DNA from: Chthoniobacterales bacterium
Lineage (GTDB): Bacteria; Verrucomicrobiota; Verrucomicrobiia; Chthoniobacterales; UBA10450
Assembly: GCA_035274845.1 (NCBI GenBank)
Contig: DATENU010000012.1
Coordinates: forward strand, 108,908 to 172,907
Direction of reading: 5' to 3'
DNA: 64,000 bases
Part shown: in pieces, positions 33,468-63,384 of the stretch
Layout: every line of letters begins with the position of its first letter
Numbering within the stretch: the first letter of the stretch is position 1
The notes under the pieces: generated by a model
Database searches by the model: none
What the model saw: the letters and a program-made list of their open reading frames with translations, nothing else
What the model was told of the DNA's origin: nothing
Position numbers and translations under genes: made by a program

Positions 33468-34169
33468 TCATTTGAAGAAGAATTGGGCGACCGTCGTTTC
33501 CCATTCCCAGTAAATCATGGCGTAGGCGGCGAGATCGAACGCGACATGCGCAATCATTAGGAAGTAGAGCCGTCCGGTCACGGCGAAGATCGAGCCGAAG
33601 ATCAATCCAACCACAGTCGAGTTTTGAACGCCCATGGTCCCTTGAAAACCGTAGTGGGCCCAGCCGAACCAGGCTGACGTTATCAGGATTGCGAGCACCT
33701 TCACCCACAGCGCGTCGCCGAGCAGGCTGCGAAAGCGCTCGAAGGGCCACCCGCGGAAGATCATCTCTTCGCCGAACCCGGCTCCAATAACAATGATGTA
33801 GAGCATCGCCGGAATTTCCGCCGGGTTATGCGCGAGATAATGGAAAGGGCCGTTGACCGGAGGCGCACCCAGCAATGGCATCACGATCGATTTCATGGCG
33901 AACTTGAGCGCGACACCGAAAACACATCCAAGCGCAATCGTGCGGGGCCAGCTGCGAGGCCGCGCCAGGCCGAGCTCGCGCCATGGCGTTTTCGACAGCC
34001 AGGCCCAGACGAGAATGAGAATCCCGCTCAGCGGGACGAAGAGCAGGTTCCCTCCGAGGATGATCACGCCCGCGACGATCCCGAGAGGGCCGAAACCGCG
34101 CAGATGCTTCGCGAGCCGATCTTCCTGTAGCGGCGGTCTCGGACCGTCGACTCCTTCCGCGTCGTTCAC
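33468..34169 (-). CDS. CPBP-family intramembrane metalloprotease
   Basis: A 233-residue membrane protein with about six hydrophobic helices. The CPBP (Abi) motifs are EEMIFRG (134-140), a histidine in WFGWAHYGFQG (near 178) and a second in MIAHVAFDL (near 215). Together they form the metal site seen in Rce1-type intramembrane proteases. Its ATG overlaps the stop of kynU by 4 bp, so it is translated with kynureninase, a pairing with no obvious biochemical logic. It converges on the response-regulator gene. Confidence 0.85.
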   Translation of the reverse strand: MNDAEGVDGPRPPLQEDRLAKHLRGFGPLGIVAGVIILGGNLLFVPLSGILILVWAWLSKTPWRELGLARPRSWPRTIALGCVFGVALKFAMKSIVMPLLGAPPVNGPFHYLAHNPAEIPAMLYIIVIGAGFGEEMIFRGWPFERFRSLLGDALWVKVLAILITSAWFGWAHYGFQGTMGVQNSTVVGLIFGSIFAVTGRLYFLMIAHVAFDLAAYAMIYWEWETTVAQFFFK

Positions 34170-37717: not shown

Positions 37718-37858
37718 GGTTTCAAAATCCCAAATCCCAAACTCCAAATCCCAGGTAAGATTCAAATTCCAAAATCCAAAGCCGAGTTTCGCCGCCCGCT
37801 GTGATTTCGTTGGCCATTGAGATTTGTTTGAGATTTGGACCCTGGGATTTGGGATTTA
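37718..37858. repeat. Hairpin repeat, family B (AAATCCCAAA type), copy B1
   Basis: Left part with AAATCCCAAATCCCAAA-like words (37725-37785), right part with the complementary TTTGGGATTTGGGA-like words (37835-37858), and an unrelated loop between. It abuts the ATG of the MoaD-like gene. A second copy lies at 50619-50750. Confidence 0.7.
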
Positions 37859-41500: not shown

Positions 41501-42630
41501 TGCTCCCCTCCCAACTCCTCCAGGATCGCCCGCGCGGCTTTTCCGCTGGCCCCGGCTTCACCGAGCTTATCGATGATGGCGTCGAACTCCGTCACCATTT
41601 TCTGCCGGGCCGCCGGATCGTTCAGAAGCTTCAGGGTGGCGGCCGCGATCGCTCGCGGCCGGGCCTCGTGCTGGAGAAATTCAGGAACGATTTCGCGATC
41701 GGCCAGGACATTCGGCATCCCGAGAAATCTTGTTCGAATAACGAGCCGGGCGGCGAAATAGGTGGGCCAGGAAACTTTGTAAACCAGGACGAACGGCATT
41801 CGGAAGTAGGCCGATTCCAGGGTGGCAGTGCCTGAGGCGACCATTCCGGCACAGGCGCGCTGCATGGTTCCGGAGCTGTCCGCGGTCACGATTCGCAACC
41901 GGTCCCCGAGAGAGGCAGCGGCGCTCATCCGGTTGATTTCGCGCGCCAGGGTTTCGGAGGCAGCCGCGACTTCAAAACGAGATTCCGGCCGTTGCTTTGC
42001 GATCTCTGCCGCGGCTTCGAGCATGATCGGGAAAATTTTCTTCACCTCGCGCGCTCTGCTGCCGGGAAAAAGCCCGACCAGGTTGGGATCGCGGGGTTCG
42101 CCCGTGCGACGCTGCGCGAGATTCTCGATCATCGGATGGCCGACAAAGATCGTGCGCAACCCGGAGGCGTTGTAGAGCTCGGCTTCGAACGGAAAGATGC
42201 AGAGCATCAGGTCGAGGTAGCGCGCCATTTGCGAGATCCGGCCGCGATTCCAGGCCCAGACTTGGGGACTGATGTAGTAGATAATTTTCGTTCCGGGTGC
42301 GTGCGCACGCAGGGTCCGCGCGAGCCTCAGATTGAACCCGGGATAATCAATCAACACGACCGCATCCGGCTGGGCCGCCGCGATCTCGCGCAGGGTTTCG
42401 TCAAATTGCTTGCGGAAATAGGGATATCGCCGCACGACTTCCCAGAGCCCGACGACCGCCGCGGCATCGATCCAATTGTTAAATCTCTCCCCGGCGATTG
42501 TCTTCATGCGAGGACCGCCCCGGCCCTGAAACTCGCAATCCGGCGCGAGATCCCGCAGAGCCCGCATTAAGGCCGCGCCATGCTCATCCCCACTGGCCTC
42601 GCCCGCGACGAAATAAAGTCGCCTAGCCAC
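41497..42630 (-). CDS. lpxB: Lipid-A-disaccharide synthase
   Basis: A 377-residue GT19 enzyme. It joins UDP-2,3-diacylglucosamine to lipid X to give the disaccharide of lipid A, at the inner face of the membrane. Landmarks are VAGEASGDEHGAALMRAL at the start, FQGRGGPRMK, VVLIDYPGFNLRLA and YISPQVWAWN. GLFPGSRAREVKKIFPIML and LESAYFRMPFVLVYK follow in the C-terminal half. The stop codon is supplied by a hairpin repeat. It overlaps the upstream oxidoreductase gene by 8 bp. It shows an outer membrane with lipopolysaccharide or a related glycolipid. Confidence 0.95.
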   Translation of the reverse strand: MARRLYFVAGEASGDEHGAALMRALRDLAPDCEFQGRGGPRMKTIAGERFNNWIDAAAVVGLWEVVRRYPYFRKQFDETLREIAAAQPDAVVLIDYPGFNLRLARTLRAHAPGTKIIYYISPQVWAWNRGRISQMARYLDLMLCIFPFEAELYNASGLRTIFVGHPMIENLAQRRTGEPRDPNLVGLFPGSRAREVKKIFPIMLEAAAEIAKQRPESRFEVAAASETLAREINRMSAAASLGDRLRIVTADSSGTMQRACAGMVASGTATLESAYFRMPFVLVYKVSWPTYFAARLVIRTRFLGMPNVLADREIVPEFLQHEARPRAIAAATLKLLNDPAARQKMVTEFDAIIDKLGEAGASGKAARAILEELGGEH

Positions 42631-49775: not shown

Positions 49776-50620
49776 ATTTTCTAAAATCGCTCGTCCAAAA
49801 GTTTACCGGGCGTCCCGTCGATTGGGATGAGCTGGAGGCGATGTTGATCCGGGCTGATCTGGGCGTGCCGATGACGTTGCGCATTATCAAGGCGCTCCAG
49901 GCGCGGGCCGAGCGGACAACGATCACGTCGAACGACATTGCCGAGGTCGCGCGGGACGAGATCGGCCGGGTGTTGCCGATGGCGCCGTTGCCGATTACTC
50001 CCCACCCGGCGCGGCCGAAGGTCCTTCTCATCGTTGGCGTCAACGGCACCGGCAAAACGACCTCGACCGCAAAGCTGGCGCATTATTTCAAACGCAATCG
50101 CCACAGCGTAATGCTCGCGGCCGCGGATACGTTTCGGGCGGCGGCGATCGAACAGCTGGGAGTCTGGGCCGAACGCATCGGCGTCGAAATGATCCGAGGC
50201 CAGTACAACGCCGACCCGGCCGCGCTTTGTTACGAGGCCTATGCGGCCGCGGACCGCAAGAACATCGAGTTTTTGATCTGCGACACCGCCGGGCGGCTTC
50301 ACACGAAAAGCAATCTGATGGCGGAGCTGAGCAAGGTGAAACGCAGCCTGGCGAAGCAAAACGAGAAAGCGCCGGACGAAACCTTGCTCGTCGTGGACGC
50401 GACCACCGGCAGCAACGCGCTCTCGCAAGCGCGTGAATTTCACCAGGCGATCGGGTTGACCGGTCTGATCGTGACCAAGCTCGACGGCAGCGGCAAAGGC
50501 GGCATCGTCATCGCAATCCAGGACGAGCTCGGTCTTCCGACGCGTTTTGTCGGCACCGGCGAGAAGCTCGAAGACCTGGCGCCGTTTGATGGGCGCGATT
50601 TCATCGCGAACATGGTGTAA
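49772..50620 (+). CDS. ftsY: Signal recognition particle receptor FtsY
   Basis: A 282-residue NG-domain GTPase. An N-terminal four-helix part (1-75) precedes the G domain, with GVNGTGKTT (89-97), the [11 protein letters not shown] box, [20 protein letters not shown] and the closing [13 protein letters not shown]. It docks SRP-ribosome complexes on the membrane. It lacks the long acidic A domain of E. coli FtsY, as do many bacteria. Its ATG overlaps nusB. A family-B hairpin repeat begins at its stop codon. Confidence 0.95.
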
Positions 50621-50750
50621 ATCCCAAGTCCCAAAATCCAAATTCCAAGTAGGTTTCAAATTTCAAATCTCAATACATCGGCGCTGCACTAATTTGGTCA
50701 TTGAATTTTGGGGATTGTTTGGGATTTGGGACCTTGGGATTTGGATTTTC
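50619..50750. repeat. Hairpin repeat, family B, copy B2
   Basis: The left arm has AAATCCCAAGTCCCAAAATC (from 50619), and the right arm has TTTGGGATTTGGGACCTTGG near 50719-50750. The arms are complementary over about 30 bases. It begins at the ftsY stop and ends 12 bp before the MFS gene. Same family as 37718-37858. Confidence 0.7.
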
Positions 50751-52967: not shown

Positions 52968-53056
52968 CTGGAGACGGCTCGCCATCGAGCCGTTCGGAGT
53001 ACGCGCCGCCCGCAGCCTTGATTCCCCTGCCCGGCACGATGGCGTGCCGGCTCCAG
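52968..53056. repeat. Double-hairpin repeat, family D, copy D1
   Basis: The outer arms (CTGGAGACGGCTCGCC... and ...GGCGTGCCGGCTCCAG) are inverted copies of each other, and each arm itself folds (GGCTCGCCATCGAGCC; GGCACGATGGCGTGCC). It starts 2 bp after the stop of the MsrB-like gene. A related copy is at 63236-63384. Confidence 0.7.
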
Positions 53057-53058
53057 CG

Positions 53059-55014
53059 TCACTTTCCTAGAATGTCTTCAAATCGCGAATCGCCGCGCAA
53101 CGGATCCCATTCGGGCTCGACTCGCAACGTGCCGGGCGTCGGGCCATTCGGGACCTTGATTAATTCCGCGAGCAATTGCAGCGCGCGATCCAGTTCGCCT
53201 GAGTGCGCGTAGATCACCGCCAGCTTTGTGGCGATGAGCGGCCCGTCGAACGCGTCTTTCGAAATCGGGAGCAATTCAGTCGCCCGCCGGCCAGCGGCGA
53301 TCGCCTCCTGGTAATTGCCGCGCATCGCCAGGACCAGGCCGAGCATCGCGATGACTTTCACGTCGTCATGCGCTTTCGCGAGATCCTCCTCCACGATTTG
53401 TTGCACGGAGGCAAAGGCGCTCTCGGCCCCGGCCGCATTCCCGCGAGCCCGCTCGATCAGCCCTTCATACCAACTCTTTGGAAATGTGTACCCGTCCAAA
53501 ATGCTCGCGGACCCGCCGACGCCGATATCGTTAAGCCGGGCGTACCGCGATTTCCTCAGCCAGCGCTCAGCCTCATCGTAATCCCGCGCTGAAAGATAAA
53601 CGCGAACCGCGATGTTCGTTACGCCGCCGCCCGGATCGAAATCGGGCGGAATGGAACAGAGGACCGTGCAGAGCGGCTCAAGGTTCCCCTGGGTTCTAAA
53701 GGCAATTGCCGCTTGCGCCAAAGTAAACAAATGCGCATCCGCATTTGCCTCCTTCCCAATCGCAAATCCTCGCGTCGACTCTTCGCTCCGGCCCACGCAG
53801 GCGTAAGTCTCCGCCAGGTTCCAGAGCACCGAAGCATTACGCGGATCGAGTTCCTTGGCCTTTTCGAAATTGGAAATCGCGTCGTCCCACCGGCCCTGGC
53901 GACGATCGATAGCCGCGGCCGCATCCCAGGCTTCGGCGTCGTTGGGCGCCGCCGCGTGCGCAATGGCCAGCTCCGTCCGCGCCAGCTCATAGTCGCGGTA
54001 GCCGTAATAATAATAGTAGGCCATCGCCAGGCGGACATCGCTCGAGTCCGGTTGCAGCCGCAACGCCGTGTCGGCGGCAAGCTTTGCCTGCGTCAGGCGT
54101 TGCCGGCTTCGGTCGTACCCGAACCAGAAAAGCTCCGCGTGAAACCGCGAGGTGAGACAATGGGCGAGCGCGAAATGCGGATCGCGCGCCACGGCTTCTT
54201 CGAGCAACTTCAAGGCGCGCTCGCCATTTTCGCGCGGATCGCCGGACCCGCTCCAGCGAAAAAGGTCGCGGGCCCGCAAAAACAAATCGTAAGCCTCGAG
54301 ATCGCTTGTCGGATGGGTTTGCAGGCGGACTTTTTCTTCTGGCGAAAGATTGGCGCGCAAGGCGAAAGCGATGCGCCGCGCCAGCTCAGTCTGAAGCGCA
54401 AACAGATCGGTGATCTCGCGGTCGAAGGTATCGTTCCAGACGTGGAGATCAGTCCGGGCATCGATGAATTGCGCATTGATCCGCACCCGGTTCGCCTCCC
54501 GCCGCACTGTTCCCTCGAGGATATAGGCGACCCCGAGCGCTTCACCGATTTCGCGAATGTTGCGCGTGCCGGTCCGATACTGGCGCACCGAAGTGCGGCT
54601 GATCACCTTCAGATCCGCCACCTTCGCGAGATTGGAGAGAATGTCGTCCTGAATTCCATCCGCAAAGTAGGTGTTCTGCTGGTCGTCGCTGAGATTTTCG
54701 AATGGCAGAACGGCGATGCTTTTTTCCGGAGGCGGAGACTTCGCGACCGGCATCGCGTCTTTCGCCGGCTCGATCTCTTCGGTCCGGATAATGCCGGCCG
54801 GCGTCAAATCGAACAACCAGGACAACAGCAGCGCCACGGGCAAGCCGAGGGCGAGCCCTATAATAATGAGCCGAACGATCCAGGCCGGAATCTCAAGAAA
54901 CGGAAAGACCTGCGTCGCGATCTGGATCAGCAGCCAGGCCAGGACCGCGTAGGCCACCGCGACGCGATAGACCTTGCGCCGCTTGAGTTCGGAAAAAAAC
55001 TTTCTGGCATTCAT
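53059..55014 (-). CDS. TolB-like/TPR membrane protein
   Basis: A 651-residue protein. Two membrane helices lie near the N-terminus (about 15-35 and 45-68: AVAYAVLAWLLIQIATQVF, LIIIGLALGLPVALLLSWLF). A TolB-like domain (about 95-215) has KSIAVLPFENLSDDQQNTYF, ADGIQDDILSNLAKVADLKV, and YILEGTVRREANRVRI. Many TPR units cover about 230-640, for example NASVLWNLAETYACVGRSEE. This architecture is usually found after adenylate cyclase or winged-helix domains as a signalling or scaffold module; here the N-terminus is a membrane anchor instead. Function unknown. Confidence 0.82.
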   Translation of the reverse strand: MNARKFFSELKRRKVYRVAVAYAVLAWLLIQIATQVFPFLEIPAWIVRLIIIGLALGLPVALLLSWLFDLTPAGIIRTEEIEPAKDAMPVAKSPPPEKSIAVLPFENLSDDQQNTYFADGIQDDILSNLAKVADLKVISRTSVRQYRTGTRNIREIGEALGVAYILEGTVRREANRVRINAQFIDARTDLHVWNDTFDREITDLFALQTELARRIAFALRANLSPEEKVRLQTHPTSDLEAYDLFLRARDLFRWSGSGDPRENGERALKLLEEAVARDPHFALAHCLTSRFHAELFWFGYDRSRQRLTQAKLAADTALRLQPDSSDVRLAMAYYYYYGYRDYELARTELAIAHAAAPNDAEAWDAAAAIDRRQGRWDDAISNFEKAKELDPRNASVLWNLAETYACVGRSEESTRGFAIGKEANADAHLFTLAQAAIAFRTQGNLEPLCTVLCSIPPDFDPGGGVTNIAVRVYLSARDYDEAERWLRKSRYARLNDIGVGGSASILDGYTFPKSWYEGLIERARGNAAGAESAFASVQQIVEEDLAKAHDDVKVIAMLGLVLAMRGNYQEAIAAGRRATELLPISKDAFDGPLIATKLAVIYAHSGELDRALQLLAELIKVPNGPTPGTLRVEPEWDPLRGDSRFEDILGK

Positions 55015-55038
55015 TCCCTCGGCAATCGCTTTTAGAAT

Positions 55039-55100
55039 GTAGAGGCGCTTGTGCCAAGCGCCTGTTCAATTACTTAGGCGCCTGGCCCAAGCGCCTCTAC
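55039..55100. repeat. Hairpin repeat, family E
   Basis: GTAGAGGCGCTTG (55039-55051) and CAAGCGCCTCTAC (55088-55100) are perfect 13-bp complements, with a loop holding further GGCGC words. It lies in the divergent gap between the TolB/TPR gene and rarD, just before the rarD start. Confidence 0.7.
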
Positions 55101-55110
55101 AATCTCACCG

Positions 55111-56058
55111 ATGTCTTCTCCAACTAATGCCGGCGCAGCGCGCGAAGACCGGTCCGGACTCATCGCCGGCATCGCGGCCTTCGGCGCCTGGGGATTCATT
55201 CCGGTCTACTGGAAGCTTTTCACCAGCCTCTCGGCCTCCGAAATCCTGGCGCACCGCTTCGTTTGGACGACCGGTTTCCTCGTCGGATTGCTGAGTTGGC
55301 AAGGGCGTTGGCCTGAGGTTCGCGAGGCCATTCGATCGCGCCGGGCGCTGTTATACTGCCTCGCCAGCGGCCTCGCCATCTCCGTGAACTGGTTTTGCTT
55401 CATCTGGGCGGTGAACGTCGGACGCGTCATCGAAACGAGCCTCGGATATTTCATGACGCCGCTCATGAATGTCCTCCTGGGTGCGACGTTTCTGCGCGAG
55501 CGGCTCACCCGCCCGCAACTGATCTCGGTCCTGCTGGCGCTCGTCGGAGTCCTGAATCTCACGCTGGGCTACGGCCGCTTTCCCTGGCTCGCGCTCACCC
55601 TCTGCGTTTCGTTCGGCCTTTATGGATTGCTTCGAAAAAAATCCGGTGTGCGCCCGATCCCGGGCTTGTTTCTCGAAACGACCCTGCTTACTCCCGTCGC
55701 CGCGGCGTGGTTGCTTTACCTCCAATTTGCCGGCCATTCCGCGTTCAGCTCCAACGGTTGGTCGATGGCGGCGCTCCTCGTCAGCACCGGCATCGTCACC
55801 GGGGTCCCGCTGGTCTGGTTTGGCCATGCCGCTCGCCATCTCCGGCTCACCACCCTCGGCTTTCTCCAATACCTGGCGCCAAGCTTCAGCTTTTTCCTGG
55901 GCGTTTTCCTGTATCACGAACCTTTCACCCGGGCGCATCTGATCACGTTCACCTTCATCTGGGTCGCCCTGATCATATTTACCGCCGAAGCCATCTGGCG
56001 CTGGCGCTCCGACCGCGCAGAACCAATCGCCGAACCGGTAGCCCGCGCCGCGCATTAG
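55111..56058 (+). CDS. rarD: EamA-family transporter RarD
   Basis: A 315-residue membrane protein with ten helices of the DMT superfamily. The start is typical of RarD (GLIAGIAAFGAWGFIPVYWKLF), and residues such as EILAHRFVWTTGFL and SLGYFMTPLMNVLLGA fit the family. RarD proteins are linked to chloramphenicol sensitivity, but the true substrate is unknown. The stop codon TAG overlaps the left arm of a double-hairpin repeat. Confidence 0.88.
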   Translation: MSSPTNAGAAREDRSGLIAGIAAFGAWGFIPVYWKLFTSLSASEILAHRFVWTTGFLVGLLSWQGRWPEVREAIRSRRALLYCLASGLAISVNWFCFIWAVNVGRVIETSLGYFMTPLMNVLLGATFLRERLTRPQLISVLLALVGVLNLTLGYGRFPWLALTLCVSFGLYGLLRKKSGVRPIPGLFLETTLLTPVAAAWLLYLQFAGHSAFSSNGWSMAALLVSTGIVTGVPLVWFGHAARHLRLTTLGFLQYLAPSFSFFLGVFLYHEPFTRAHLITFTFIWVALIIFTAEAIWRWRSDRAEPIAEPVARAAH

Positions 56059-56166
56059 GTGGATCGCGCGCTACGTCGCGCGATTTTTGGCGCGTTTAAC
56101 TCTTTTCAGCAGCGAATTTCCACAGTGACGCTGCACTCATCGAGCGACGTAGCGCTCGATCCACCT
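56057..56166. repeat. Double-hairpin repeat, family F
   Basis: The left arm AGGTGGATCGCGCGCTACGT... (56057-56084) and the right arm ...ACGTAGCGCTCGATCCACCT (56139-56166) are complementary at 26 of 28 positions. Each arm contains an inner palindrome. The repeat spans the whole gap after rarD and contains its stop codon's last two bases. Confidence 0.75.
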
Positions 56167-56213
56167 TGCCCTACCAATTACGGCCGTCCGCGATTACCGT
56201 AGACGCCGCAGCC

Positions 56214-56735
56214 ATGACTGAAGACGATTTCCAATATGCGATCGAAAACACGCGCGTCATCGTGGCGCCGCAACAGCAGATCGCCAGCTTTGGCAGCACC
56301 AGTTTCCGGTTCTACCTGATCTCGGAATTGATGGATCGAGTGAACGAAATCCGGGTGCGCGACGGACGGATCCACGCCGAGCGTCCGCAGATTCTCACTC
56401 CCGACCATTACTGCCGGCTGCTCCTGGAAGGGTTTGGCGAAAAGGCCGAAAAATATGTCGAGCAACTCCGGGAACGCACCCGCAACATGGCGGTGCTCCG
56501 CTACGGATTTCAATTCCGCAAGACCGATGTCGTGGAAAACACCGTCCGCGACAGCATGGATGCAGTCGTCGAACGAACGAGGCGGCAGATCGAACATTCC
56601 AACGAACCGCTCAGCGCCGTCATCCAGGGCGTGGACGATGCCTGGGAAGTTTGCTTGCTGAAATTCACAATCGATCTCATCGAACGCTCCAGCGGCGGAA
56701 ACATGGGCGATTTCCGCCGGCGCGGGCTGGTTTGA
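56214..56735 (+). CDS. Conserved hypothetical protein
   Basis: A 173-residue soluble protein that I do not recognise. Features are an N-terminal TEDDFQYAIENTRVIVAPQQQI, a central FYLISELMDRVNEIRVRDGR and a helical C-terminal half (EKAEKYVEQLRERTRNMAVL, then VRDSMDAVVERTRRQIEHSN). There is no membrane segment. The start at 56214 begins at the first ATG that gives a normal-looking N-terminus; an upstream in-frame option at 56166 lies in the repeat region. Taxon-restricted family likely. Confidence 0.6.
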   Translation: MTEDDFQYAIENTRVIVAPQQQIASFGSTSFRFYLISELMDRVNEIRVRDGRIHAERPQILTPDHYCRLLLEGFGEKAEKYVEQLRERTRNMAVLRYGFQFRKTDVVENTVRDSMDAVVERTRRQIEHSNEPLSAVIQGVDDAWEVCLLKFTIDLIERSSGGNMGDFRRRGLV

Positions 56736-56752
56736 CCGCGCGGTTTCTAAGA

Positions 56753-56843
56753 CAAGGAGCGGCGGTTTGAAACCGCCGTCTGGAATTAGCAGACAGCGTC
56801 GCTTGCCTTATGGGGTCGGCGGTGAAGACACCGCCGCTCCTTG
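56753..56843. repeat. Double-hairpin repeat, family G
   Basis: The left arm CAAGGAGCGGCGGTTTGAAA plus CCGCCG and the right arm CGGCGGTGAAGACACCGCCG plus CTCCTTG are complementary to each other over about 26 bases. Each arm also forms its own hairpin (CGGCGGT...ACCGCCG). It fills the convergent gap between the hypothetical gene and the glycosyltransferase gene. Confidence 0.75.
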
Positions 56844-63235: not shown

Positions 63236-63384
63236 ATGGAGACGGCTCGCCACCGGGCCGTTGAGGGAAACCTCGTTTCTTCCTCCGCCCATTGGAGCCC
63301 GGTCGCCGCGGCGAGCCGTTGAGACAAGAGCTCCGCCTCGATTATTTGTTTCCCCCCCTCCGGCACGATGGCGTGCCGGCTCCA
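63236..63384. repeat. Double-hairpin repeat, family D, copy D2
   Basis: Starts TGGAGACGGCTCGCCACCGG and ends CGGCACGATGGCGTGCCGGC plus TCCA, the same arms as D1 with a longer middle. A third arm-like segment (TTGGAGCCCGGTCGCCGCGG) lies inside. Fills most of the gap before the pseudouridine synthase gene. Confidence 0.65.

Follow-up and report, generated by a model that had tools for sequence, protein, structure and literature searches.

Four elements, here called D, E, F and G, in a 64 kb stretch of a 4.54 Mb soil Verrucomicrobiota genome assembled into 24 contigs (the window; G000, contig C12, positions 108908-172907) are very probably REP doublets of the BIME/REPIN type. We assign them to four REP families, which are non-autonomous and would owe their spread to RAYT (TnpAREP) HUH/tyrosine transposases whose genes lie at other places in the genome. 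D and F would form REPtrons with a resident RAYT, G would most likely depend on the RAYT at locus L003, and E would be a fossil family lacking a partner in this genome. Direct support comes from the anatomy of the elements, their copy number, the D- and F-type repeats flanking RAYT genes, and presence or absence at orthologous sites. D-G are confirmed as a known kind of element (REP/BIME/REPIN with RAYT), with the uncommon GGAG head found in two of them as a variant.

The sequence-only reading had described four double-hairpin elements, all of which were recovered. Element D (52968-53056) lies between the end of an msrB-like gene and a convergent TPR gene, whereas E (55039-55100), from a low-copy family that looks like a relic, lies in a divergent gene pair, 10 bp upstream of the ATG of a rarD-like gene. 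Element F (56057-56166) begins on the stop codon of the rarD-like gene, and G (56753-56843) has convergent genes on either side. Folded as single DNA strands, all four scored far better than 200 dinucleotide shuffles each (z-scores of -6.0, -9.3, -7.0 and -5.7 for D, E, F and G, respectively), with no shuffle being as good. The shared design initially put forward, an outer inverted repeat with self-folding arms in D, F and G, holds for these elements but had set E apart too strictly: both E arms, GTAG-AGGCGCTTGTGCCAAGCGCCT and GTAG-AGGCGCTTGGGCCAGGCGCCT, also fold on themselves, so the design is common to all four.

Each element consists of two convergent, head-out REP units, a unit being a hairpin of 8-9 bp with a head of four bases on its 5' side. 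In D, both heads read GGAG, with stems ACGGCTCG/CGAGCCGT in the left unit (52970-52992, plus strand) and CCGGCACG/CGTGCCGG in the right unit (53032-53054, minus strand). The E units (55039-55063, plus; 55076-55100, minus) both carry GTAG heads. Those of F carry GTGG, written GGTGG when the preceding G is included; the left unit (56058-56083, plus) has the stem ATCGCGCG/CGCGCGAT with a T run after it, and the right unit (56140-56165, minus) the stem ATCGAGCG/CGCTCGAT. The G units again have GGAG heads, with CGGCGGTT/AACCGCCG on the left (56756-56778, plus) and CGGCGGTG/CACCGCCG on the right (56817-56840, minus). A blind scan of the full window for this anatomy (head G[GT][AG]G, perfect 8-9 bp stem, 2-6 nt loop) returned nine sites, seven of which fall within D, E, F and G, while the same scan of the reversed window returned none. 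The remaining two sites are a D-type unit at 63360 and an unassigned GTGG hairpin, CGGCCGCGA, at 41636. An inverted-repeat search of the window reported E and F but, at the limits used, not D and G; Rfam gave no match to the window, and element F had no match in a phage collection. Elsewhere in the window, beyond the interval first described, we noted another head-out D-type doublet (63238-63383), a lone GTAG-CGGCGGTCTCGGACCGTCG unit belonging to the family of the L007 RAYT (34127-34149) and, as another type of repeat, long AAATCCC/GGGATTT inverted repeats (37725-37857 and 50619-50742). The TPR protein adjoining D and E (53059-55014) belongs to a large paralogous family, with 21 matches in this genome and up to 57 in one relative.

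Across the whole genome, strict unit patterns matched 114 D-type, 81 F-type, 69 G-type and 6 E-type units, the latter forming three doublets, whereas reversed-pattern controls gave zero matches for each of the four. Stem covariation was counted for the D family: at the one stem pair that the pattern does not fix, 34 of 35 exact D-type matches were Watson-Crick, with four different pair types represented, and one was T-G. The families are therefore multi-copy and the D stem covaries, which removes the concern, raised along with the original description, that the elements might be single-copy and unconserved in structure. Strict units less than 200 bp apart formed head-out plus/minus doublets in 11 of 11 close G pairs and 18 of 27 close F pairs. 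As 47 of the 69 strict G units had no strict partner within 200 bp, many are either singletons or have degenerate partners.

These genome-wide copies also bear on a different explanation, namely that the elements are locally selected intrinsic terminators, bidirectional between convergent genes, that merely look similar. The location of D and G between convergent gene ends and the start of F on a stop codon would suit such a role, as would the left hairpin of F (56058-56095), which has ATTTTTGG directly after it and a terminator-like score, so that F may also terminate rarD-like transcripts. However, terminator-like sites in the region did not exceed those in shuffled sequences (7 versus a mean of 5.3, sd 2.0), E lies between divergent genes, fixed-head, near-identical copies are spread across the whole genome, and relatives have empty orthologous sites. 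We consider this explanation very unlikely; termination may be a by-product of the elements.

The suggestion to look for a common processing enzyme proved fruitful, with nine Y1/HUH transposase (Y1_Tnp) genes found in the genome, most of them RAYTs. Five of six genes checked scored above the cut-off of the NCBI model for REP-associated tyrosine transposases (NF047646), the sixth, L001, being of the IS200 type. REP hairpins were present on both flanks of eight of the nine genes; L001 instead had a longer repeat. The RAYT of locus L006, which matched E. coli TnpAREP (4er8) with an E-value of 1.4e-9, is accompanied by six D-type units lying on both sides of it, and the RAYT of L008 is bounded on both sides by F-type units. 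Thus, D at L006 and F at L008 show the REPtron arrangement of a RAYT between its own REPs. The E family does not, as no E doublet flanked any of the nine transposase genes, and no RAYT partner for E turned up in the loci covered by the search. In the case of G, doublets combining G-type with L003-type units were found beside the L003 RAYT and at L097:9701-9756; the linked repeats at L003, GGAG-GGGCGCTTTCC mixed with G-like units, are related to G but not identical. The other transposase loci carried GTAG-GGACGGCG (L009), GTAG-CCGCTTCGC (L002), GTAG-CGGCGGTCTC (L007), GGAG-GTTAGGCT (L005) and GTGG-CGCAAGTT (L004), and this separate repeat family per locus indicates that several RAYT/REP pairs coexist in one genome. 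Being short, non-autonomous, multi-copy and built as inverted repeats, the elements could also be read as classical MITEs, which a DDE transposase would mobilise and target-site duplications would border. We nevertheless regard a MITE origin as extremely improbable: the elements show heads and hairpins rather than plain terminal repeats, a RAYT gene sits between the same repeats, and no target duplication was evident when the F site was compared with the empty site of G006, a single site that counts as weak evidence.

Gene order around the elements is conserved in genomes of the same genus, allowing orthologous sites to be compared. G006 has no element at the F site, which another family occupies in G005, G003, G002 and G004; directly after F, GCCCTACC (56168-56175), with a GTAG head on the minus strand, is a remnant of the older REP family that occupies this site in relatives. 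At the D site, G005 likewise has an element of D type, whereas that of G006 is from another family, and we found at the G site no element in G003, G002 and G001 and a different repeat in G004. E-type elements with altered stems precede the rarD-like gene of G006, G003 and G002, with a chimeric one in G020, and this presence in several relatives makes E look like the oldest of the four. Since sites in sister species are either empty or filled by other families, the elements come and go, a pattern that fits their arrival, decay and replacement. The sequence-only reading had left a choice between a shared mechanism of spread and a cruciform-based function. The former is supported by one anatomy in four families, by D- and F-flanked RAYTs in the same genome and by this site turnover, whereas the analysis lent no support to the latter, folded single strands being the substrate in published RAYT work. 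A related proposal is that the elements are cruciform-forming regulatory or nucleoid-protein sites, a role that has been put forward for E. coli BIMEs, and are kept by function rather than transposition. The strong folding potential of D-G and the retention of E ahead of the rarD-like gene by three relatives, G003, G002 and G006, are in its favor, but patchy presence and the change of family at one site speak against it, and we judge it unlikely, although D-G may carry some function on top of their mobility.

We compared the REP doublets and their RAYTs with known systems. Two inverted REPs with a short spacer, the hallmark of BIMEs and REPINs, were found in all four elements. REPINs (PMC3116915) share this unit of two inverted REPs with D-G, and differ in spacer and family composition. 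PMC3733652 describes GTAG-tagged REPs in Verrucomicrobia (Opitutus terrae), including copies inside genes, and its GTAG super-family resembles D-G in having a head tetranucleotide, a short hairpin and dimers in opposite orientation, and further agrees with the present genome in the presence of several families per genome, repeats inside genes and complementary stem variants. All four elements have the unpaired head and palindrome of this super-family, G, D and F are present at high copy number whereas E has only its 6 units, and stem complementarity was found in the D family. The listed super-family heads are GTAG, GYAG, GYRG, GTRG, GTMG and GTGG; D and G instead have the GGAG variant, and no word starting with GGAG occurs in the text of that paper. 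In the same line, this head departs from the GT(A/G)G of RAYT-linked REPs as given in PMC2817692, and our search of open-licence PMC papers gave none that contains RAYT, REP and GGAG as whole words.

RAYTs located between REPs are already known (PMC2817692), and REPtrons, as covered by PMC2817692 and PMC8266576, share with our loci a RAYT between inverted REPs, one RAYT per family and an abundance tied to the RAYT. They differ from ours in that GGAG heads occur here and that some of our RAYTs lie within protein-coding genes. Besides the five genes above the RAYT model cut-off, the carB-embedded enzyme described below has the HUH motif, the catalytic tyrosine and a modeled TnpAREP-like fold. 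According to PMC8266576, RAYT substrates are folded single strands: TnpAREP attaches to the REP in this form, is guided by the head, makes its cut next to it and then carries out strand transfer. By analogy with this published biochemistry, a RAYT would bind the folded single-stranded REP via head and stem, its tyrosine would cut adjacent to the REP, and the strand would be re-joined elsewhere, probably during lagging-strand synthesis. Under the guide model of the same work, the GGAG head would retain the A3G4 guide directing it to CT sites, and the GTGG head should pick CC sites. To this known class, D-G add a genome from the Verrucomicrobiota in which many REP families coexist and GGAG heads occur, and this helps to test how the head is read by RAYTs.

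Two of the nine Y1_Tnp genes lie in frame inside housekeeping genes, namely carB (L080:2981-6934 on contig C9, a frame of 1318 aa) and valS (L079:2539-6033 on contig C20, 1165 aa), each with its own REPs. Pfam and NCBIfam both confirmed host and Y1 domain in the two frames. Both hosts are single-copy in this genome, with one match to the valS query and two matches to the carB query within one internally duplicated gene. Terminal inverted repeats of 49 nt, separated by 645 nt, mark the carB unit, and the valS repeat family comprises 13 units in the genome, five of them within valS (control, 0). We then surveyed the carB linker, which in E. coli CarB would be found at roughly residues 470-494, in the 49 family genomes in which both linker sides were found; two more stopped at contig ends. 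A stop-free, in-frame RAYT with its catalytic motif was present in 19, a broken-frame RAYT in two (G044, with seven stops, and G064, with an insert containing a run of N), short inserts of 63-192 nt, some of them reading as in-frame REP hairpins, in 12, and a linker of 39-45 nt in 16. Linker length was a multiple of three in all 28 RAYT-free cases. Palindromic repeats in frame inside genes are also described for the Rickettsia palindromic elements mentioned in PMC3733652; there it is the repeat alone, whereas here a complete transposase gene and its repeats are in frame.

Host and insert identities were uncorrelated (Spearman -0.04 for the 171 pairs of 19 genomes; 0.01 for the 153 pairs without G067; pairs are non-independent in both cases), indicating that the histories of CarB host and insert disagree. 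Between G000 and G006, for example, the CarB halves are 92-94% identical and the inserts 49%; inserts appeared vertically inherited in two close pairs, G010/G054 and G016/G056. A FastTree phylogeny with 104 rows, which leaves out loci with frames of at least 330 aa but no named host, the duplicates L167, L169 and L246, domains under 120 aa and the broken G044 and G064 inserts, placed 20 of 21 CarB RAYTs in one clade, shared with three MqnA RAYTs, while the CarB RAYT of G067 grouped with the MetH/AlaS type. Changes between free and embedded states numbered 16, of which five were forced by well-supported branches; L249, L008 and L009 are long branches in this tree and should be read with caution. 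The H-x-H motif and the tyrosine of the carB-embedded RAYT were invariant in 17 of 17 alignment rows (A1), and dN/dS was 0.07-0.13 in the five of nine pairs with usable dS, three of which are non-independent MqnA pairs, the four saturated pairs being left out. The embedded RAYT domains are not decaying. The predicted structure of the carB-embedded RAYT (mean pLDDT 87.2) had as its best PDB match 4er8, that is TnpAREP with its REP hairpin (E-value 2.6e-6), with a modest TM-score of 0.47.

We give about even chances to the broader reading that a RAYT lineage lives in frame in essential enzymes, where it is produced as an internal domain that keeps its catalytic residues and is subject to purifying selection, and that it returns again and again to one and the same permissive linker, with carB foremost. 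Most of the genomes are MAGs, and an open in-frame reading is no proof of one long protein. Moreover, an ancient insertion with later recombination and loss could give the same picture as homing, and enrichment in essential genes is expected as a survivor effect, with no adaptation needed, if insertions elsewhere are freely lost. If in-frame residence is real, the RAYT would sit in a gene that cannot be lost, making imprecise deletion lethal and guaranteeing expression, and carbamoyl-phosphate synthase-type enzymes would carry a whole DNA-processing domain in a linker. The persistence of single-copy RAYT transposases has been an open question; residence in ValS or CarB would help explain why they persist as single-copy 'domesticated' transposases and is a testable answer. 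Inteins with homing endonucleases likewise place a mobile-element enzyme in frame in essential proteins, repeatedly at one site. Embedded RAYTs resemble them in these respects and differ in that the RAYT domain would remain part of its host. In eight embedded hosts scanned with Pfam and NCBIfam, no protein-splicing domain of an intein/Hint family was listed (for one host, among the best 25 of 39 families). Our search of open-licence PMC papers found no description of RAYTs embedded in frame in housekeeping enzymes. The only trace of them in the papers searched was in PMC6006769, where 'unexpectedly long proteins' with Y1 were discarded as fusions or annotation errors; such proteins, set aside before, merit re-examination.

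More globally, the RAYT subfamily was matched at an E-value of at most 1e-20 in 118 of 387 genomes of the phylum, and the named relatives of the embedded RAYTs are mostly Verrucomicrobiota, such as Chthoniobacterales bins. Among the best 80 named loci (more matched), the RAYT lay within an open frame that extends for at least 120 aa on both sides in 30 and on at least one side in 39. Of 33 frames given to a Pfam host scan, L224 was dropped because its frame missed the RAYT, and a host family was named for 30 of the 32 usable ones, L198 and L235 remaining without a family. Hosts in these frames included CarB, ValS, LeuS, HsdR, Eco57I-type IIG and MmeI enzymes, PriA, the ExoVII large subunit, an SNF2 helicase, IspG, HypF and others, and the family genomes added MetH, AlaS, ClpB, Sua5 and MqnA. 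The embedded RAYTs span Verrucomicrobiota, Kiritimatiellota, Planctomycetota, Chloroflexota, Bacteroidota, Ignavibacteriota and other phyla; one of them, L240, is from a cultured type strain, Flavobacterium branchiophilum NBRC 15030, and is therefore not a binning artefact. Restriction-enzyme hosts are non-essential, which puts part of the hosts outside the persistence argument. Eco57I-type IIG restriction-modification hosts recurred in several phyla (L179, L184, L186, L214, L221, L225 and L240), with the RAYT located about 490-615 aa from the start of the open frame, representing another recurrent site.
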